Assembly: GCA_024403035.1 (NCBI GenBank)
Contig: JAKSSP010000002.1
Span: 1-64,000, forward strand
Length of the DNA stretch: 64,000 bases
Origin: Mogibacterium sp.
GTDB taxonomy: Bacteria > Bacillota > Clostridia > Peptostreptococcales > Anaerovoracaceae
Direction of reading: 5' to 3'
Each line of letters starts with the position of its first letter. Position 1 is the stretch's first letter. Shown here piece by piece: positions 24,255-34,412 of this stretch. Below the pieces are notes generated by a model, which was not told the DNA's origin, made no database searches, and saw nothing but the letters and a program-made list of their open reading frames with translations. The position numbers were made by a program, and so were the translations under genes.

Positions 24255-25109
24255 CTATCCTCTCATCACCGAAGCGACTTCATCATCCAGAGCCTTGCAT
24301 TTTTCCCTGAGATCCTTGATCTCCTTTACCATCTTCATCTGCTCGGCATTTGACTTCCTTACAAGTTCCATATTGTTGTAAGGGACAGTGTTTCTTACTT
24401 CAGCGTCAAGAACTCCGCCATAGATTGGCGCGTTGTCAGTGAAGAGCCCCCACTTCTCGTCGCCGTAATCGAAGTGCCACCACTCTGACGGGAAGTTAGT
24501 GAATCCGACTTCCGTCATGACATTGTAGAGCATCCTGCGGTTGTCTCTTGCGGTGTCGTTGACGCCTTCACCTTCTCCGCCCTCTTCGTAGTATGTCGTC
24601 CATGCTCTGTTGGTGAACTCATCAAAATCGCTTCCCATGTCGAGTTCTTTTCCGTCCGGTCCTACTATAGTCAGATCGACTGCTCCGCCCGTGTTGTGGA
24701 GCGAAGGCAGCAGGATGTTGTACGACGGGAACGAGACGCAGAACATCGTCTGGTAATCGATCTCCTCAGGCGTAGCGTCAGGGAACTGCTCGACCTTTTT
24801 AGCCCTGTAATAGTCCCATAAGGCCTGCTGGACCGCTACCGGTCTGTAAGCGTCGTAAATCGAGAATTTATAGCCCTCAGGCAGCAATGCTTCGGCCTTC
24901 TCCACCATCTCGAAGACGGTCTTGCGGCACATGATGCTTGGACTTGAACCCGGAAGCGGATTCATGTTGTCCTCAGGCCATTTGTTGTACCACGAATTAA
25001 GAATGAACCTGCCATCCATGTAGACCATAGGCTCATCCGACGGGTCTGCTACAGGCAGCTTGTTGGAAAGGAATTCTATATTCGGGATAGGTTTTTTGTA
25101 ATCTACCAT
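24255..25109 (-). CDS. D-alanyl-D-alanine dipeptidase (M15, VanX/DdpX type)
   Basis: 284-residue zinc dipeptidase. Active-site residues: R89 in DAYRP, H138 and D145 in SLHNTGGAVDL, E209 and H212 in SEWWHFDYG. It cleaves D-Ala-D-Ala or similar D-dipeptides. A C-terminal coiled coil of about 40 residues (from LVRKSNAEQMKMVKEI) is an extra. No vanH or vanA/B ligase is present, so this is peptide recycling or catabolism, not glycopeptide resistance. It lies 30 nt after the M19 dipeptidase gene and before the membrane-anchored protein. Confidence 0.88.
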   Translation of the reverse strand: MVDYKKPIPNIEFLSNKLPVADPSDEPMVYMDGRFILNSWYNKWPEDNMNPLPGSSPSIMCRKTVFEMVEKAEALLPEGYKFSIYDAYRPVAVQQALWDYYRAKKVEQFPDATPEEIDYQTMFCVSFPSYNILLPSLHNTGGAVDLTIVGPDGKELDMGSDFDEFTNRAWTTYYEEGGEGEGVNDTARDNRRMLYNVMTEVGFTNFPSEWWHFDYGDEKWGLFTDNAPIYGGVLDAEVRNTVPYNNMELVRKSNAEQMKMVKEIKDLREKCKALDDEVASVMRG

Positions 25110-25139
25110 GATATTTCCTCCTTTTGTGAAATCAGATGT

Positions 25140-26123
25140 CTATCCGACAACTTCTTTTACGATCCTGTGGAAGTTCCTGAACGCGATCTTCTCGATCTCG
25201 TCTTCACGCATTCCTCTTGCTCTGAGAATATCAAAGAGGTGCGGGATCTTGCTTGAATCTTCGAGTCCGGCTGTGACTGCATCCATTCCCGAGTATACTT
25301 CAGGGTCATTAGGATCTCCGAGGAATCCGCAGAAGTCGAATCCGCAGCCTACATGGTCGATACCCATGATATCGATCATGTGCTCACAGTGATCTGCCAG
25401 CCTGTTGATATCGCCCTTTGCAGGATCTTCATCGAGGAATTCATTCCATGCGTTGAGTCCGACGCAGCCGTTTGCGTCCCTGATGGCTCTGAGCTGGTCG
25501 TCAGTCAGGTTTCTCGGATGCGAGCTGAACTTCTTGCAGTCTGAGTGCGAAGCAATGAACGGACGGCCGTCCATGATCTTAGCGATGTCCCAGAAACCTG
25601 CCTCGTTGAGGTGGGATGTGTCTACGATCATCTTCTTGTCGATCATGTGCAGAACAGCCTTCTTTCCGAGATCGCTGAGTCCTTCGGTGCTTCCCGATGC
25701 CGCGCTGTGTCCGAAGCCGTTTTCTTCATTCCATGTCAGCATGCCGTGCCTTGCACCGAAGTCATAGTACTCATCGAGTTTGGCGAATGTCGGGTCATAC
25801 GAAGCGTATGCCATGCCTTCTACTCCGATCATTATATAGAAAACTCCGTCTTCCCTGGCCTTCATCATCTCATCGTAAGTCTTTACGATCCTGAAGTCCT
25901 TAGCCTCTGCAATCTCATCGGATACACAGCTGAAGATCTCGCGAGTCCTTTTTGCGTAATCTCTGATATGAGGAGGATCCACCCAAAGTACGAATATGGA
26001 GCCCTCTACTTCACCCTTCTGAAGTCTTTCAAAATGTTGGTTGTGAAACACGTTGGTCTCACCTTTCAGTCTCTTTATAGTTACATCTGTCCAGATGTCG
26101 CTGTGTGCGTCAAAACACTTCAT
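25140..26123 (-). CDS. Membrane dipeptidase family (M19) peptidase
   Basis: 327-residue renal-dipeptidase-type zinc enzyme. FDAHSDIW supplies the first metal histidine and aspartate (H7, D9), IGVEGMAY the bridging glutamate, VDTSHLNEAGF and ASHSDCKKF later histidines, and VGCGFDF the catalytic region. M19 enzymes cleave dipeptides, often with a C-terminal D residue. I chose the ATG at 26123 because AGGAG lies 8 nt upstream; the frame runs 13 codons further without support. It is the second gene of the DUF819 operon. Confidence 0.92.
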   Translation of the reverse strand: MKCFDAHSDIWTDVTIKRLKGETNVFHNQHFERLQKGEVEGSIFVLWVDPPHIRDYAKRTREIFSCVSDEIAEAKDFRIVKTYDEMMKAREDGVFYIMIGVEGMAYASYDPTFAKLDEYYDFGARHGMLTWNEENGFGHSAASGSTEGLSDLGKKAVLHMIDKKMIVDTSHLNEAGFWDIAKIMDGRPFIASHSDCKKFSSHPRNLTDDQLRAIRDANGCVGLNAWNEFLDEDPAKGDINRLADHCEHMIDIMGIDHVGCGFDFCGFLGDPNDPEVYSGMDAVTAGLEDSSKIPHLFDILRARGMREDEIEKIAFRNFHRIVKEVVG

Positions 26124-26195
26124 TTCTTTTCTCCTGTAAAAACGGGCAGGCGCTCCGGGCATGGCCCAAAGCGCCTGTCTTTGATCAGTATTCAG

Positions 26196-27446
26196 CTATA
26201 GTCCAAGCGATACAGCTACGATGGTTCCGAGATAGTTACCGATAACGTAGCCGAATGTACCTGTGAGCATTGCCGGTCCGACGAGGTCGACCCAGCCCTG
26301 CGAGATAGCCATACCTGCAGCTGTGGTAGGTCCGCCGATGTTCGCGTTCGAAGCGATGATAGCGTCCTCAAGGTTGAACTTGAAGAGCTTGGCAGCTCCG
26401 AAGCAGAAGATCATGTTGACGAATACCATGATAGCTGTGAGTACAAGGAAGAGCGGGCTCTTTGTAACAACGGTGTAGATGTTTGCAGGAACACCGATTA
26501 CGAAGAGGAACAGGTAGATGAAGTAAGTACCGATCTCCTGAGATCCGTGCATTTCCTTTACTGTCTTTGTCATGAACGTAGCAACAAGTACGGAGAATGT
26601 TGTGATCCATACGTACTGGGATCCGAGGAACCTTACTACGAAGTTCATGAATACGCCGTTTGGCTCAAATCCGCCGAACAGTCCTGCAACCAGTCTGGAA
26701 ACCCAAACTACTGTGGAAGCATATGCGATATTGATCGCGATGTCCTTGAGGGAGATGTCCTTGCGGCTCCAGAACTGAGCAGCAAGTGTCTTTGCCTCTT
26801 CGAGATCTACTGCGCCGGACTCGACTTCCTCGATCAGAGGATGCTTGAAGTTCTTGCGGAACCAGCTGTTTCCTGCGAAGAAGATAAGTACGAAGAAGTA
26901 GATAGCCATCAGCAGGTTATCCGCTACTGTAGCAGCAGCTGTTACGTCCTCACCTGCAGCATACTGAGAAGCCATGGCAGCGAAGTTTACACCACCGCCG
27001 ATGTATGAACCTGTCATCATCGAAGCTACTCTTGCGAGGTCCTGAGCGTTTCCGTAAGGTCCCTTGAGCAGGAAGTAAGCGAGATATGCGCCGCAGACGG
27101 TACCCACAGCACCTATCAGGAAGATAACCAACATTCGTCCAGTCTCAGCCCAGATCTTCTTCATGTTGCACTGGAGAAGCAGCATAGGGATACCGAGAGG
27201 AACGATCACGCCCCATACGATGTCATCATAGAGTACGCATGAAGTCGGGATTACTCCCAGGTTGGCAAGGACCATAGCGATGATCAGAGCGATGATAGCG
27301 CCGGAAACCTTGGAAGCCCATGTGTATTTCTGCTCCAGCCAGATGGAGAAGAATACGCCAACGGTCATGACTACAAGAAGTCCCCACATGTCATCGGCTG
27401 CGATCAGGGACTCACGTCCTACCAATCCCATCCATAAACCAGTCAT
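26196..27446 (-). CDS. DUF819 family membrane permease (YjcL-like)
   Basis: 416-residue integral membrane protein with 10-12 hydrophobic segments. MTGSYIGGGVNFAAMA and the late segment ASNANIGGPTTAAGMAISQGW form an internal repeat typical of DUF819 transport proteins. AGGAGG lies 7 nt before the ATG. As first gene of an operon with two dipeptidases acting on D-containing dipeptides, it is a good candidate importer for such peptides or an exporter of product; this is inference. Confidence 0.85.
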   Translation of the reverse strand: MTGLWMGLVGRESLIAADDMWGLLVVMTVGVFFSIWLEQKYTWASKVSGAIIALIIAMVLANLGVIPTSCVLYDDIVWGVIVPLGIPMLLLQCNMKKIWAETGRMLVIFLIGAVGTVCGAYLAYFLLKGPYGNAQDLARVASMMTGSYIGGGVNFAAMASQYAAGEDVTAAATVADNLLMAIYFFVLIFFAGNSWFRKNFKHPLIEEVESGAVDLEEAKTLAAQFWSRKDISLKDIAINIAYASTVVWVSRLVAGLFGGFEPNGVFMNFVVRFLGSQYVWITTFSVLVATFMTKTVKEMHGSQEIGTYFIYLFLFVIGVPANIYTVVTKSPLFLVLTAIMVFVNMIFCFGAAKLFKFNLEDAIIASNANIGGPTTAAGMAISQGWVDLVGPAMLTGTFGYVIGNYLGTIVAVSLGL

Positions 27447-27540: not shown

Positions 27541-27573
27541 GATAAGAAAATAACGGAGTCATATGGCTCCGTT
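27541..27573 (-). terminator. Terminator overlapping the end of the TPR gene
   Basis: Stem AACGGAG / CTCCGTT (27552-27573) followed by ATTTTCTTATC on the minus strand. The 5' arm encodes the last codons of the TPR protein and the loop contains its TGA stop codon. Confidence 0.8.
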
Positions 27574-28620
27574 TTCTTCTTCTCTGTTGCTATTGACTAT
27601 ACCGATCTTATTGCGGTATTTTGCGGCGTTTTCCTTATCCCCTGTTGCTTCATACAAATGGACAAGTTCATCCATTGCGTCCGTATTGCTCGGTGAAAGT
27701 GTCAGGACTTTTTTGAAGTCTGCGATCGCTTCATCCGCGTTGCCAAGGGATGCCTCAGCTACCCCGAGATAATACCAGAGCGGCCACCACTGCGAGTATC
27801 TGCCTTCAGTATACTTCATCAGAGTGTCCTTTCCTCCGACAAAGTCTCCGCCCATGATGCTGTTGCATCCAAGCTCTATCTGGACAGGCTCTTCAAGTTC
27901 TTCCACCCTTTCGGATATCTCTTCTCTGAGAGATGCCAGCAGCTCATCATCCATCTCATGGATCTCGGTCTCGCTTCCTGCGGACAGTCTGAGGAAGTCC
28001 TGCCATGTGAGCCTTGCCTTGAGGTAGAGGCCCATGTTTAGATAAGCATATCCAAGGAAATAATATCCCATCGCGAAATCCGGATGGATCATAGTCAGGA
28101 GTTCGAATGTCTCGGAAGACTCGGCCTTGAATAGACCTATCCTCTCCTCATCGCCCATGCCGTCATCTGCCGCGGCCGCTTCCGTCTCATATGCCTCCTT
28201 GCAGGCCCTGGCATAAAGGTAAAGAGCATCTCTTGACTTAGGGTCAAGCCTGAGAGCTGCTCTCAGCTGCATGCAGGCATCCTCAAAATCGCCCATGTCA
28301 GCTGAATGTGCTCCTTCGGACACCAGCATAGCTACAGCGTTCTCTCCTACCGCGTGTTTGATGAAATTCGCGTATTTATCCGCGTAGAGGAAGAGCGGGT
28401 CGCCTCCCATGATTCTCGCCATGTTGAGGACGATGTTTTTAAGGTCGATAGTTCCTTTGGCGTCGCTCCCCTCTATCCCGACAGGAACGGGGATCCCGCT
28501 GAGGATCTCAGCCGCGTTGGTCCTCTCAAGGTAGTCAGGCGAAAGCTCCGCGAACATCATATTCTGAATTCGCGGAGAGAGGTATTTGCTTATTCTGTCT
28601 TTGTTTTCTGCTTCGTTCAA
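27559..28620 (-). CDS. Tetratricopeptide repeat protein
   Basis: 353-residue soluble protein. TPR-like helical pairs are visible at about 108-130 (GDFEDACMQLRAALRLDPKS), 180-205 (YYFLGYAYLNMGLYLKA) and 283-330 (YLGVAEASLGNADEAIADF then LTLSPSNTDAMDELVHLYEATG). The N-terminal 90 residues are of unknown fold. The start overlaps the stop of the preceding radical-SAM-like gene by 4 nt (ATGA), so the two products are made together and probably interact. Function unknown. Confidence 0.85.
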   Translation of the reverse strand: MNEAENKDRISKYLSPRIQNMMFAELSPDYLERTNAAEILSGIPVPVGIEGSDAKGTIDLKNIVLNMARIMGGDPLFLYADKYANFIKHAVGENAVAMLVSEGAHSADMGDFEDACMQLRAALRLDPKSRDALYLYARACKEAYETEAAAADDGMGDEERIGLFKAESSETFELLTMIHPDFAMGYYFLGYAYLNMGLYLKARLTWQDFLRLSAGSETEIHEMDDELLASLREEISERVEELEEPVQIELGCNSIMGGDFVGGKDTLMKYTEGRYSQWWPLWYYLGVAEASLGNADEAIADFKKVLTLSPSNTDAMDELVHLYEATGDKENAAKYRNKIGIVNSNREEENGAI

Positions 28621-30137
28621 TCTATATCCCAGCCTTTTATATCGAACTTCTTGATCGCTTCTTCCGAGATCATTGTCTCAAGATCCGCGTAAATGACGTC
28701 CTTGAGGATGTCGAGCTTCACAGGATCGGCGAGGTCGTCGTACAGACCGCCGGCGAACGCGAAGAGTATGCGTGCCAGATGCTCTTTCTTGCGGGTCTTG
28801 CTGCCAAGACCTTTCTTTGTGATGAATGAGGAAAGCCTGCTGAACAGATCGTACGGTTTGATACCCGTGTCATTCAGCACTCTTGGGATGGACTTCTTGA
28901 ATCCGCCGTCACCTACATAGCTTTCGACCGTGCGGGCAATGCCTCTGATCCTCAGCATCTCTTCCGCGGTCATATGGCTCGTCGCGATGACCTCATAAGG
29001 AGAATCATACGCGAATACATAGCCGTACGCGTTAGAATCTGCTCTGAGATCGGTGCCCTTGCTTATATAAAGCCCATCGATGTGGACCGGCATTCCCTCT
29101 GCCATTCCGAAGGCCTTGTTGAAGGATCTCGCGAACATCGCCTCTGTCTCAAGAGGCAGTCCGGCCTTCACGTGTATCTCCGTCACGATATTGCCTGCCT
29201 GCAGAAGCTTTGTGGTGTTGTACATGAGGCGGTAGATGTTCTCTCCCCTGCCAATGGCTGCCAGAACTTCCGCGTTTGTGCTCGCGATATCTATGTTGAA
29301 TATGATCTGCCCGTCTCTGGCTTCAGAAAGCAACCTTATGGTCTCTTCATCAAGTTCATCACCGTTTACATTGAACTCGAAAGATGTCACGCCGTTGTCG
29401 TTGTTGATGATGTACTCAAATATCCTGTACGCTCTCTCACTGTTGTAGTTGAAGAACCTGTCGAGGAATACCACGCGGCTCACTTCCTTGGCGAGGAAGT
29501 ATCTGAGCTCTGTGCAGACTCTGCCGAGGCTGAGAGCCCTTACTCTTGCATCCGGAAGATGCTGCGAATAGACGGTCCTGTCCGAAGTTCCCCTTATCGT
29601 CTCGTAATAGACAGTACCCTTGCCCGCTTCAAACTTCTCATAAGGGAAAGGCAATGATTCTACATCTACAGGCGCGTCATACGGATTGACGATTATCTCA
29701 TCGTTTTCTCTGTATGCAAGGCCGGCTATGTTCTCGAAGTCGAATTCATAGTCGAGGATAGACTTGAGGAAGTTGAACATCACGCTCTCTCCCTCACCTC
29801 TGATCACATAGTCGACAAAAGGAAATTCCATCATGAAACTGCGTGTCTCGAACGACACCTGCATGCCGCCGAAAAGCACCGCGATGCTCGGTACAGCTTT
29901 CTTGACCATTTCAGCCACGTGCCTGAGCTTTGCTTCGTTTTCATCATTGGCATGGAAATAGACCATGTTGTACTGGCCTGTAGCGATATCTTCAAATATG
30001 TCCGCGTAGAGGTCAGTACGTTCATAGGTCCTGATCTGTACGTCCACCGGTGAATCGGTGACCACGCTGAACAGATACTTGAGTTCGAGGTCGGTTCTTT
30101 TGTTGTCCGATTTGATCGTTGTCAGCAGGAGTTTCAT
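28617..30137 (-). CDS. Radical SAM-like protein (DUF4080 type) lacking the cluster cysteines
   Basis: 506-residue protein with an N-terminal cobalamin-binding-like Rossmann domain (about 1-130, VLFGGMQVSFETR, VDYVIRGEGESV), a radical SAM barrel and a DUF4080-like C-terminus. In relatives the barrel opens with RGCxxxCxYC. Here the corresponding segment is RGTSDRTVYS: T184, T188 and S191 replace all three cysteines that bind the 4Fe-4S cluster. The codons are ACT, ACC and TCG, so single read errors cannot explain it. The rest of the barrel (FLDRFFNYN, VHIDGLYISKGTDLR) is well preserved. Classical radical SAM chemistry is therefore unlikely; a binding or regulatory role with the TPR partner is plausible. 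Confidence 0.85.
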   Translation of the reverse strand: MKLLLTTIKSDNKRTDLELKYLFSVVTDSPVDVQIRTYERTDLYADIFEDIATGQYNMVYFHANDENEAKLRHVAEMVKKAVPSIAVLFGGMQVSFETRSFMMEFPFVDYVIRGEGESVMFNFLKSILDYEFDFENIAGLAYRENDEIIVNPYDAPVDVESLPFPYEKFEAGKGTVYYETIRGTSDRTVYSQHLPDARVRALSLGRVCTELRYFLAKEVSRVVFLDRFFNYNSERAYRIFEYIINNDNGVTSFEFNVNGDELDEETIRLLSEARDGQIIFNIDIASTNAEVLAAIGRGENIYRLMYNTTKLLQAGNIVTEIHVKAGLPLETEAMFARSFNKAFGMAEGMPVHIDGLYISKGTDLRADSNAYGYVFAYDSPYEVIATSHMTAEEMLRIRGIARTVESYVGDGGFKKSIPRVLNDTGIKPYDLFSRLSSFITKKGLGSKTRKKEHLARILFAFAGGLYDDLADPVKLDILKDVIYADLETMISEEAIKKFDIKGWDID

Positions 30138-30181: not shown

Positions 30182-31909
30182 TTACATGCGTTCAGGAGCA
30201 GCTATGCCAAGCAGCCCCAGACAATTTGCAATCACGGTCTTTGAAGCCTTTACGAGAGACAGTTTTGCTGCCCTTTCCTTCTCATCATCAACAAGGATGT
30301 GCTCATCATGATAGAACTTGTTAAACGACTGGGCGATATCCACCAGGTGGCGTGTGACTATCGAAGGCTCATACTTTTCAGCCGCCTCGATGACCACCTC
30401 AGGCACTCTGTAAAGGAGTTTCGCGAGAGCGTAAGCGCTGTCGCTTCCGAGGTATGAAGCATCGATGCTTCCGAGTGAATCTACATCGACGCCGGCAGCT
30501 GCCGCCTTTCTGAGTACGCTTGACGCTCTTGCGTGTGTGTACTGTACATACGGGCCTGTCTCGCCGTCAAAGTTGAGGACCTTGTCCCATGAGAACACGT
30601 AGTCCTTGATCTTATTGTTTGAGAGTTCCTGGAAAATGACAGCTCCGATACCGACTTCCCTGGATACCTCGTCGATGTCCACTCCCTGCACTTCCTTCTC
30701 ACGCATTATATCAGCCGTCTTGGCGACTGCCGTATTGAGAACGTCTTCAAGGAACACGACTCTGCCCTCGCGTGTCGACATCATCTTGATGTCATCTCCA
30801 TCGGACAGGCTCACCAGACCGAACGGTACATGGACACAATCCTTCTCCCACTCGTAACCCATGAGCTGGAGGACCTTCTTCCACTGCTTGAAGTGCAGGT
30901 TCTGCTGCGATGCCACGACGTAGATGCACTTGTAGAAGTCGTAGTGCTCTTTGCGGTATACCGCGGCCGCGATGTCTCTTGTGACATAAAGGCTGGATCC
31001 GTCAGATTTGGTGATCATGGCGGCTCCGAGGCCGTAAGGCTCAAGATCAACGATCTGTGCGCCCTGTGATTCCACCAGGAGACCCGTGTCCTTGAGTTCC
31101 TGTATGAATCTCGGCATCTTGTCGGAATAGAAGCTTTCTCCCGCATACGAGTCAAAAGTGATGCCCAGCATGTCATAGACACGGTTGAACTCTTCAAGGC
31201 TCAGTTTCCTGAACTTCTCCCAAAGCTCCAGCTCTGCGGGTTCGCCGGCTTCGAGTCTTACGAAGGTCTCCCTGGCCTCGTCTTCGAGTTCAGGATGCTC
31301 TTTTGCTTCTTCATGGAACCTTGTATAGTAGCCCAGAAGCGCTTTTATAGGCTCTTTGGCAAGTTCTTCTTCGCTTCCCCACTTGCGGTAAGCGACTATC
31401 ATCTTGCCGAACTGTGTGCCGTAGTCTCCAAGGTGGTTGATCCTTGTGACATCATAGCCTACAGCATCATAGAGCTTGTAAAGAGCGTTTCCGATGACCG
31501 TGCTCCTGATATGGCCTATATGAAACGGCTTAGCGATGTTAGGCGATGAGTATTCGACGATTACCTTGCGTCCCTGACCGCAGTCAGATCTGCCGTATTC
31601 AGGGCCCAGCTTGTTTACTTCTTCTACGACTTCACCTGCAAAATAGGCTCTGTCGATAAAGAAGTTGACATAGGCATTGACGTTCTCAACCTTTGCAAAG
31701 GCTTCAGAACCGCCGGCTTTGGCGGCGATATCCGCAGCGATGAGCTGCGGAGCCTTGCGAAGAACCTTCGCAAGCCTGAAGCACGGAAAGGCGTAATCGC
31801 CCATTTTCTCGTCTGCAGGTATCTCTATCATGCCCTTTATGTCCTGTTGCGACAATCCGAGCGACTCATCATATATTTTCTCAGCAATTATTTCTTTGAA
31901 ATCTGTCAT
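30182..31909 (-). CDS. argS: Arginyl-tRNA synthetase
   Basis: Class I synthetase of 575 residues. HIGH motif at 130-133 in AKPFHIGHIRS, preceded by the family pattern VEYSSPNIA; the KMSK loop is replaced by MMSTREG, as usual for ArgRS; DALR-type anticodon domain at the C-terminus. AAAGGA lies 6 nt before the ATG. A TATAAT at about 31964-31969 could be a -10 box but has no good -35. The gene is followed by the radical-SAM-like/TPR pair after 44 nt. Confidence 0.97.
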   Translation of the reverse strand: MTDFKEIIAEKIYDESLGLSQQDIKGMIEIPADEKMGDYAFPCFRLAKVLRKAPQLIAADIAAKAGGSEAFAKVENVNAYVNFFIDRAYFAGEVVEEVNKLGPEYGRSDCGQGRKVIVEYSSPNIAKPFHIGHIRSTVIGNALYKLYDAVGYDVTRINHLGDYGTQFGKMIVAYRKWGSEEELAKEPIKALLGYYTRFHEEAKEHPELEDEARETFVRLEAGEPAELELWEKFRKLSLEEFNRVYDMLGITFDSYAGESFYSDKMPRFIQELKDTGLLVESQGAQIVDLEPYGLGAAMITKSDGSSLYVTRDIAAAVYRKEHYDFYKCIYVVASQQNLHFKQWKKVLQLMGYEWEKDCVHVPFGLVSLSDGDDIKMMSTREGRVVFLEDVLNTAVAKTADIMREKEVQGVDIDEVSREVGIGAVIFQELSNNKIKDYVFSWDKVLNFDGETGPYVQYTHARASSVLRKAAAAGVDVDSLGSIDASYLGSDSAYALAKLLYRVPEVVIEAAEKYEPSIVTRHLVDIAQSFNKFYHDEHILVDDEKERAAKLSLVKASKTVIANCLGLLGIAAPERM

Positions 31910-32000: not shown

Positions 32001-34412
32001 TTATTTACGGTCCTTAAGTTCCACTATCGTGCATCCGTCGCCGCCTTCATTGTACGGAGCGGACTTGAATGACTTCACATGCTTGTTGTGTGACAGTTCC
32101 TGTCTTACTCCGCTTCTGAGTATCCCCTCTCCGCGTCCGTGTATCACGTGGACGGTCTTGAGTCCTGCGAGGAATGCGTCGTCGATGTACTTGCTGACCA
32201 GATCACACGCTTCTTCAAGGTTCTTTCCTATAACATTGATCTCGGTCTTTATGGTCTTGGATTTGCTTAACGACAGATCGCCGTATCTTGCTCTGTTTTT
32301 CTCCTTATGGCCCTGAGGCTCCGACTCGGCTATAACCAGATCCCTGACGTTGACATCCATCCTGATGGATCCGAGTCTCAGCTTCACATTGCCTCTTGAA
32401 TCAGGCAGGCTTTCCACGTCTCCGGTCTGACCCAGCTTCATATACTTGACTCTCATGCCCACCTTGATATCTTCAGGCTCAGGCGTCTTGCCGGTCTGTA
32501 TGGTCTGTACCTCCGGCGCTTTTTCAGGCTTGAGCGCGGACTCAGCCTGTCTTAGTTTTCTGCGTCCGTCTGCAGCTCCGCCCGCTATGTGGCCCTCGTT
32601 GAACCCGGCATCTTTCTTCTTATGCTGGATATCCCTGAGTTCTGCGGTTATCTCGTCGATGGTTCCCTGGGCGTCTCTCAGCATGCCGCCGGCCTTTTTA
32701 CGGGCCTCTTCCACGATCCTGGCGGCCTCTGCCCTGGCCTTTGCAAGTTCTTTCTCCGCCTCTGTCTTGACTTCATGAGCGGCTTCTATCTCTCTGCCCG
32801 CTTCCGCGAGTCTTTCTTCCGCCCTTGCCTGGTCGGCTTCGACTCTGCTGACGGCTTCTTCGAATTCGAGCTGCTCTTCACCAAGCAGTTCAGTAGCCCT
32901 GTCGATTATGGTCTTGTCCAGGCCCAGCTTTTCGGATATCTCAAAGGCATTCGATTTGCCCGGAAGACCAACTCTCAGCCTGTATGTAGGCGAGAGCGTC
33001 TCAACGTCGAATTCCATTGATGCGTTCTCCACTCCGGGCGTCGAAAGAGCGTATTTCTTCAGTTCGGTATAGTGAGTGGTAGCCGCAACAAGAGCGCCGG
33101 CTTCCTTGAGCCTTTCAAGCTCCGCTATGCCAAGCGCTGCTCCTTCAAGAGGGTCCGTGCCTGCTCCCAGCTCGTCCAGGAGCACCAGGCTGCCCTCTCC
33201 CGCGCTCTCAAAAATCTCGATTATGTTCTTCATGTGCGATGAGAAGGTACTGAGGCTCTGCTCTATGCTCTGCTCATCACCGATGTCGGCGAATACTTCC
33301 TTGAGAACAGGCAGGCTGCTTTTCTCATCTGCAGGTATGTGAAGTCCGCTCTGCGCCATAAGACACAGAAGACCTATCGTCTTAAGAGTGACCGTCTTGC
33401 CGCCTGTGTTAGGGCCGGTTATGAGGAGCGTCGTCCAGTCATGCCCAAGCTCAACATTGATCGGAACCACCCTTTCCGCAGGTATCAGCGGATGGCGTCC
33501 GGTCCTTATATCTATGTAGTTATCTTCGTTCAGAAGCGGTTCAGCGCCGTCCATAAGGCAGGACAGCTTGCCTTTGGCGTTTATGAAATCCAGTTCGGCC
33601 ATCAGCCTCTGGTCGTTCAGAAGGCTCTGGTGATGTTCGCCGACCCTGCTGCTGAAGAGTTCCAGTATCCTTACGATCTCCGCCTGTTCGTCCAGCTCAA
33701 GCTGCCTCAGCTCGTTGTTCAGATTGACAACTGACTGAGGTTCCACGAAGAGCGTGGCTCCCGTCGATGACTGGTCGTGCACCATTCCCGGAAAAAGGCT
33801 TATGTATTCTCTCTTGACCGGTATGACATATCTGCCGTTACGCATGGTGACTATCGCGTCCTGCAGGTGTGTTTTGGCAGATCCCGAACTTATCATCTTC
33901 TGCAAACGGGATTTTATGAGATCGTTTTTGTTGCGTATATCGCGTCTTATGGCTCTCAGTGCGGGAGAGGCGTTGTCCGACATCTCGTCCTCACTGATTA
34001 TCGCATTGGAAATGTCCTGTTCTAGCTTCGTTACCGGATCGAGCAGTCCCGCGATCTCAGGTATCACCTTGAGTCCTTCAGGCATGTCGCTGTTCAGGAA
34101 GGTCTTCACCTGGCGGGCCGAAGCAATGCTGACCCTTATCTGAAGGAGTTCCCTCATGCTGAGGCATCTGCCTCTCCTGGCCATTGACACTATGCCGCTT
34201 ATATCTCCGATCTCTCCTACCGGAATGCTTCCCTTATAGGAAATAACGGAAACCGCTTCCGTAGTTTCCGTTAGTGCATCCTTTGCCATGCGCGTATTGG
34301 TCATAGGCTCAAGACTGTCTATTCTTTCTTTAGCCAGACCCGAGCCTGCCTGATCGCGCAGAAGCCCAAGTATTTTATTTAATTCGAGGAGTGTGAGTAT
34401 CTTAGAATTCAT
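32001..34412 (-). CDS. mutS2: Endonuclease MutS2
   Basis: 803-residue MutS paralogue without mismatch-recognition domain. MutS core with Walker A GPNTGGKT (333-340), LVLLDELGAGTDPLEGAAL (Walker B), a coiled-coil clamp region (about 515-620), a KOW-like segment (VKYMKLGQTGDVESL) and a C-terminal Smr nuclease domain (VIHGRGEGILR). MutS2 acts on branched DNA or, in B. subtilis, on collided ribosomes. It overlaps zapA by 11 nt. Confidence 0.96.
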   Translation of the reverse strand: MNSKILTLLELNKILGLLRDQAGSGLAKERIDSLEPMTNTRMAKDALTETTEAVSVISYKGSIPVGEIGDISGIVSMARRGRCLSMRELLQIRVSIASARQVKTFLNSDMPEGLKVIPEIAGLLDPVTKLEQDISNAIISEDEMSDNASPALRAIRRDIRNKNDLIKSRLQKMISSGSAKTHLQDAIVTMRNGRYVIPVKREYISLFPGMVHDQSSTGATLFVEPQSVVNLNNELRQLELDEQAEIVRILELFSSRVGEHHQSLLNDQRLMAELDFINAKGKLSCLMDGAEPLLNEDNYIDIRTGRHPLIPAERVVPINVELGHDWTTLLITGPNTGGKTVTLKTIGLLCLMAQSGLHIPADEKSSLPVLKEVFADIGDEQSIEQSLSTFSSHMKNIIEIFESAGEGSLVLLDELGAGTDPLEGAALGIAELERLKEAGALVAATTHYTELKKYALSTPGVENASMEFDVETLSPTYRLRVGLPGKSNAFEISEKLGLDKTIIDRATELLGEEQLEFEEAVSRVEADQARAEERLAEAGREIEAAHEVKTEAEKELAKARAEAARIVEEARKKAGGMLRDAQGTIDEITAELRDIQHKKKDAGFNEGHIAGGAADGRRKLRQAESALKPEKAPEVQTIQTGKTPEPEDIKVGMRVKYMKLGQTGDVESLPDSRGNVKLRLGSIRMDVNVRDLVIAESEPQGHKEKNRARYGDLSLSKSKTIKTEINVIGKNLEEACDLVSKYIDDAFLAGLKTVHVIHGRGEGILRSGVRQELSHNKHVKSFKSAPYNEGGDGCTIVELKDRK

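Follow-up and report, generated by a model that had tools for sequence, protein, structure and literature searches.

What does a protein do when it keeps the domains of a radical SAM enzyme and loses the cysteine triad that is the defining feature of such enzymes? The question is raised by a 506-residue open reading frame on the reverse strand (28617..30137) of the window, the 64,000-nucleotide stretch of Mogibacterium sp. DNA that we analyzed. The preliminary description had aligned the protein with B12-binding radical SAM proteins of the DUF4080 type, and Pfam bears this out, finding three domains above their cut-offs in the order B12-binding, radical SAM, DUF4080: PF02310 at residues 8–120 (40.4 bits against 32.1), PF04055 at residues 199–334 (33.2 bits against 29.5), and PF13311 at residues 370–489 (65 bits against a gathering score of 22.9, E 1.4e-17). 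Together with a column comparison, these matches delimit a B12-binding-like domain (approximately residues 1–125; 29763..30137), a radical SAM barrel region (approximately residues 176–366; 29040..29612) and the C-terminal DUF4080 domain (28671..29030), all on the reverse strand. Both this domain composition and an orthologous MutS2-ArgS-...-TPR locus place the protein in the DUF4080 family, with whose canonical members it shares 27–39% identity. Where CxxxCxxC is expected, however, the former cluster loop (residues 184–191; 29565..29588, reverse strand) reads T184-SDR-T188-VY-S191, encoded at the three cysteine positions by ACT, ACC and TCG and flanked by R182-G183 and FLDRFFNYN, exactly as first described. 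The PF04055 alignment covers positions 25–158 of the 166-position profile and leaves the loop end outside, and C208 is the only cysteine of the protein. The gene is single-copy in its genome, where 13 other Radical_SAM matches indicate that the organism has apparently retained ordinary radical SAM enzymes.

There is next to no chance that this loop is an artefact of reading, assembly or alignment. The genome of the window is a 57-contig assembly, 77% complete, but the same state recurs across numerous assemblies, in 55 distinct proteins, of which 26 are in named public records (Mogibacterium sp., Clostridiales and Candidatus Crickella caballi assemblies; Candidatus Crickella is placed in Anaerovoracaceae). 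Of the genus's 47 genomes, 44 have the gene and the remaining three, in which no match was found, are 59–74% complete; read error, which the preliminary description had discounted, is excluded because all 44 gene-holding genomes lack the triad.

The loss extends beyond the genus. DUF4080 homologues occur in 103 of the 197 sampled Anaerovoracaceae genomes, the other 94 having no match; the fragmentary matches of five of the 103 (G059, G144, G151, G152 and G167) were not fetched, and L166, a different radical SAM protein at 23% identity, was excluded from every count. The Cys-less set comprises 44 proteins from the window's genus and 11 copies from five further Anaerovoracaceae genera, spread over ten genomes. 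In the alignment, a complete triad is found in none of these 55 proteins versus all 83 other family homologues examined: the third loop cysteine is lost from every clade member, the first from 51 (kept in four) and the second from 42 (kept in 13). Two members, L025 and L097, retain the first two cysteines as CPDRC. L097 is one of two Cys-deficient copies in genome G136, the other being L024, and each lies beside an ArgS match and a TPR match. Outside the family, the triad is kept in all 66 loci sampled from other families of the order (drawn from 295 genomes with a match; two are fragments spanning the loop), and the set of 96 loci used for the order-level reading includes re-fetched family loci besides these. 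With the loop columns left out, the 55 proteins fall on one side of one branch in a first, quick tree containing them and 42 of the 83 canonical rows (SH-aLRT 100), and do so again with SH-aLRT 100 in a second quick tree to which rows from other families of the order were added (114 rows, two of them duplicates). In a third, careful tree of 34 rows, the 18 clade members are united with bootstrap 100 and SH-aLRT 100. Homologue search and loop alignment thus establish a Cys-less clade on a single supported branch.

Cys-less and canonical genes are positional orthologues, because ArgS (and MutS2, where the stretch reaches that far) precedes both and a TPR gene follows both. In the window, ArgS (30182..31909, reverse strand; named from conserved position and sequence, without a family scan) is separated from the DUF4080 gene by 44 bases, and upstream of it lies a gene that, by its sequence and without a family scan, we take to be MutS2 (32001..34412, reverse strand), the conserved neighbour that marks the orthologous locus. 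The order is MutS2-ArgS-partner-DUF4080-TPR for the catalytic version and MutS2-ArgS-DUF4080-TPR for the clade. The partner is a 290-residue radical SAM protein with a CX4CX2C loop and a PF04055 match. Its gene immediately precedes DUF4080, in the same orientation, in 72 of the 83 canonical loci, 69 of which have ArgS upstream of the partner, and in none of the 55 Cys-less loci, the window's included. For six of the 11 canonical loci without an adjacent partner, the contig begins within ~300 bases upstream, and a partner orthologue with 63–70% identity is found elsewhere in the genome for L107, L162, L163 and L165. Searches for the partner returned best matches of only 36% identity in the 47 genus genomes (E ≤ 1e-5) and 37% in the ten other clade genomes (E ≤ 1e-20).

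The partner/DUF4080/TPR set has been dismantled differently in different family genomes. L106 and 71 other canonical loci carry the partner upstream; G172, G206 and G233 (L162, L163 and L165) have partner and TPR together and a divergent DUF4080 protein elsewhere; and in 20 DUF4080-less genomes, hand-picked among those with a listed TPR match, MutS2-ArgS and TPR are kept in all 20 and the partner in 13. Further downstream in the window, at 24255–27446, Pfam identifies genes for an M15 (D-Ala-D-Ala dipeptidase type) protein, an M19 dipeptidase and a DUF819 membrane protein, which adjoin the TPR gene in some relatives only.

The cysteines are not the only residues to have gone. In the B12-like domain, W66 falls from 80/83 canonical proteins to 0/55 in the clade, P92 of the GGPE motif from 82/83 to 1/55 and H14 from 79/83 to 6/55; not all sites are lost, because E93 (82/83 canonical) is retained in 29/55. 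In the barrel, H254, E256, E281, G283 and Q285 (each 82/83 canonical) and H320 and D322 (each 81/83) are absent from all 55, and, to judge from where they lie on the strands and from what is generally known of radical SAM proteins, these residues would face SAM. Replaced likewise are the canonical N-terminal N-x-x-Y-x-H-S-N (KYxHSN), E-x-T-I-N (37–41) and C-F-S-C-Y-I-W-N (60–67) motifs and the QLGFLK segment; L096 has unread bases, so 54 of the 55 sequences are readable in the N-terminal columns. R182-G183, F229-N230, D247-N248-G249, G326-L327-P328 and G361 are among the residues that the clade retains. The canonical Trp aligns with W76 of TokK, and Trp76 of TokK and Trp75 of CysS sit below the cobalt of cobalamin, a site at which other cobalamin-dependent radical SAM enzymes use other residues (PMC9692996, PMC13331322, PMC12846815). 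The two family-level marks of a cobalamin-dependent radical SAM protein, this Trp and the GGP motif, are therefore missing from nearly the whole clade.

These counts bear on a reading in which the protein would still bind cobalamin, as a sensor or carrier without radical SAM chemistry. CarH exemplifies that kind of mechanism. The PF02310 score and the GG at 90–91 and N67, mostly retained in the clade, speak for such a role, but it is improbable given the fate of W66, P92 and H14. The Cys-less protein is, moreover, the sole PF02310 match in the window's genome, whose 77% completeness leaves room for more. The same holds for G009, G010, G012, G021, G031, G034 and G039, all of them 90% complete or better, so that in some hosts no second PF02310 protein is seen. 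Loss of B12 use was also considered as a general cause of the change and set aside, many genus genomes carrying strong PF02310 proteins besides the Cys-less one. The preliminary description had proposed a new non-catalytic use, as sensor, scaffold or cobalamin-binding protein; the clade does look non-catalytic, but the cobalamin-binding role is unlikely because the cobalamin-side residues were lost too, and the window protein probably does not bind cobalamin.

Nor do other cysteines offer a convincing home for a cluster. C208 is kept in 50/55 clade members, and three cysteines of the TPR protein are common in the clade (48/55, 49/55 and 42/55), which might suggest a cluster bound elsewhere or shared between the two proteins. 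The window protein, however, has its single cysteine only, and TPR Cys140 is equally common in the clade, beside canonical DUF4080 (69/76) and without DUF4080 (17/20). Cys116 also occurs in 39/76 and 16/20 of these two groups, and Cys252 alone is commoner in the clade (42/55 versus 16/76 and 9/20). A cluster bridged by TPR cysteines finds no support in this distribution, and we give any cluster held by other cysteines scarcely more credence than an artefact. We infer that the protein holds no radical SAM [4Fe-4S] cluster and makes no 5'-deoxyadenosyl radical. Because the defining triad was looked for and is absent, we do not count it among functional radical SAM enzymes.

Two loci outside the clade show related changes. 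L139 (G094) keeps the three cysteines, but K occupies positions 254 and 256, G position 320 and N position 322; it lacks the N-terminal motif, the GGP motif and the adjacent partner, no orthologue of which was found in its genome. It is sister to the 55 in the second quick tree (SH-aLRT 82) and apart from them in the first quick tree and the careful 34-row tree, its long branch shifting between trees; for the 34-row tree an AU test does not reject its grouping with the Cys-less proteins (p = 0.37). L139 may be either an intermediate or a separate case of decay; with its position shifting and that AU value, we do not adopt it as an evolutionary intermediate, and we claim no order for the loss of partner, pocket residues and cysteines because its placement differs between trees. 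L211 (G439; L211:1501-2976) is a 491-residue frame in which RRRSVG is all that is left of the loop and T and R stand at 254 and 256; it keeps W66, GGPE, an adjacent partner (75%) and TPR. L186, its nearest row, is canonical, and the loop loss in L211 is a second, independent one. It happened while the partner gene stayed in place, so the loop can be lost without loss of the partner, which weakens the idea that partner loss was the sole cause of the loss of the cysteines.

The TPR-repeat protein was identified as the ancestral neighbour of the DUF4080 gene from its reading frame, Pfam and locus comparison (27559..28620, reverse strand); its frame starts with TTG and overlaps the DUF4080 stop codon by 4 bases (TTGA). 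The proposal that a Cys-less gene is always next to the TPR gene holds for 55/55 clade loci, but it is not special to them: TPR also follows the catalytic DUF4080 gene in 77 of the 83 canonical loci, with contigs ending within 160 bases accounting for four of the other six, and is present in 182/197 family genomes versus 103/197 for DUF4080. TPR is the stable part of the locus, and its link to the Cys-less protein is one of position; a TPR gene next door is thus hardly informative about the Cys-less state, and we reject it as a marker of that state, since it follows the catalytic version and persists without DUF4080. Nearly all of 40 columns conserved in TPR proteins beside canonical DUF4080 stay conserved with or without DUF4080; columns 119 and 121, at 33% and 47% in the Cys-less clade versus 85% and 75% in DUF4080-less genomes, give a faint sign of a clade-specific TPR change. 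With ArgS as the given, distances in the Cys-less protein and in TPR correlated at 0.70 (52/55 loci), compared with 0.31 for canonical loci (63/83), which looked like co-evolution; a control with MutS2 replacing TPR gave 0.77 against 0.75 (36 loci). Because the control is equally high, the correlation is not specific to TPR and we discount it as evidence.

A gene that has lost so much might simply be decaying. In the NG86 comparison, in which many dS values are near saturation, dN/dS was 0.050 for the window gene and its nearest relative, 0.03–0.07 against six others of its kin with finite dS, 0.16 against L075, 0.02–0.08 in 11 other clade pairs (a twelfth was saturated) and 0.04–0.14 in canonical pairs (six of ten with finite dS). 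Among pairs at 45–60% overall identity, the barrel is 61% identical in the clade versus 59% in the canonical proteins; the B12-like domain is somewhat less conserved in the clade (49% versus 54%) and the DUF4080 domain slightly less (43% versus 45%), and loop identity is 43% versus 77%. Of the 44 genus genomes, 42 show no internal stop in the match; two have a TGA, but only at the last residues, which gives 504-residue proteins. All 18 good genus genomes retain the gene, versus 61/98 in the rest of the family sample (Fisher P = 0.0007, relatedness ignored), the latter figure being 71/108 minus the ten Cys-less genomes. It assumes that the clade has no members among the good genomes without a match, of which the listing gives only a part. 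That a dispensable gene is on its way to loss through relaxed decay is nonetheless suggested by its clean absence from many family genomes (the 94 without a match) and by the persistence of TPR at the locus without DUF4080 in 20/20 hand-picked genomes. Against this, which we judge very improbable, stand ratios of about 0.05, no higher than in canonical pairs except against L075, the intact frames, full retention in the good genus genomes, and new residues fixed in the clade. Judged by its sequence, the Cys-less gene is under strong purifying selection and not decaying.

The newly fixed residues fall partly in the former pockets. In the B12-like domain C60 has become Y in 54/55 members and S62 H in 51/55; in the barrel G283 has become D in 51/55 (D or E in all 55), E281 N in 46/55 (N or D in 50/55), position 256 is N or D in 52/55 and K223 has become V in 44/55. 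Further newly fixed residues are L8, L397, N409 and F429. In the window protein itself, E254, N256, N258, N281 and D283 replace H, E, C, E and G. The refixation at 256, 281 and 283, as opposed to drift, could mean that the protein is still an enzyme of a different kind, in which D226, E254, N256, N258, N281 and D283 would hold a metal or substrate for non-radical catalysis. We consider this unlikely, although it is the least improbable of the rivals to a pseudoenzyme: Pfam and NCBIfam return only B12- and radical SAM-type families, none above the NCBIfam cut-off, and such a site would require the polar residues to meet in space.

We think it likely that the window protein is a pseudoenzyme, inherited vertically and orthologous to a radical SAM protein of the DUF4080 type that is cobalamin-dependent-like; it has lost the cofactor residues and is under strong purifying selection. 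The ancestor would have been a catalytic DUF4080-type radical SAM protein encoded at the partner-containing locus. On the branch to the window's genus and five related genera, the partner, the SAM- and cobalamin-side residues and the three cluster cysteines would have been lost, the remainder of the protein being kept under strong purifying selection. The former pockets would have been rebuilt, as filled cavities or as a new ligand site, with Y60/H62 in the B12-like domain and N256/N258/N281/D283 in the barrel. The protein would then serve for binding or as a scaffold, without catalysis, and be co-translated with the TPR protein. From the rebuilt pockets we infer such a role less firmly than the loss of the cluster; binding is the most likely mode of work because the protein is selected, its pocket residues are refixed and it would be co-translated with TPR. 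A more specific proposal, possible yet rather doubtful, is that barrel and B12-type domain form a new ligand-binding module, with Y60/H62 in the place of cobalamin-side residues and an acidic and amide set (E254, N256, N258, N281 and D283) in that of SAM-side ones. Once the partner had been lost, the protein would have become a sensor or adaptor that needs no cofactor and works alongside TPR.

Canonical DUF4080 B12-binding radical SAM proteins (PF13311, PF02310 and PF04055) are the closest known counterparts, from which the clade differs in the triad, the SAM- and cobalamin-side residues and the partner. To our knowledge, the canonical family has been described only at the level of a domain of unknown function, and we found no paper naming DUF4080 in the open-access literature searched. 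The nearest solved sequences are TokK (PDB 7kdx) and CysS (PDB 9n1b), matched by the Cys-less profile with E values of 7e-11 and 3e-8 and by a canonical DUF4080 relative with 4e-23 and 1e-21; both are cobalamin-dependent radical SAM methylases holding the cluster, SAM products and cobalamin, whereas the Cys-less clade lacks the Trp and the cysteines. Pseudoenzymes are described as related to enzymes with catalytic function lost (PMC10754289), a general description that fits the clade. The Dph1-Dph2 pair is a radical SAM example in which the cysteines are arranged unusually; it differs from the clade in that both Dph subunits retain clusters that are bound by cysteines and required for function (PMC11048331). 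In the open-access literature, surveyed mostly at the level of listings, we found no named pseudoenzyme clade or cluster-less clade of radical SAM proteins.

By its sequence features, namely homology to an enzyme, loss of the catalytic set and purifying selection, the Cys-less group is a pseudoenzyme clade of the DUF4080 B12-radical SAM family. A clade spanning six genera has dropped the triad, the SAM- and cobalamin-side residues and the partner while its gene is still strongly selected, and it offers a graded natural series, from CCC in relatives through CPDRC in two early members to none in most, for the passage from a radical enzyme to a non-enzyme. It also advises caution: matches to the Radical_SAM and B12-binding domains do not prove such chemistry, and in the genome of the window the Cys-less protein is the one hit to PF02310 that was found.
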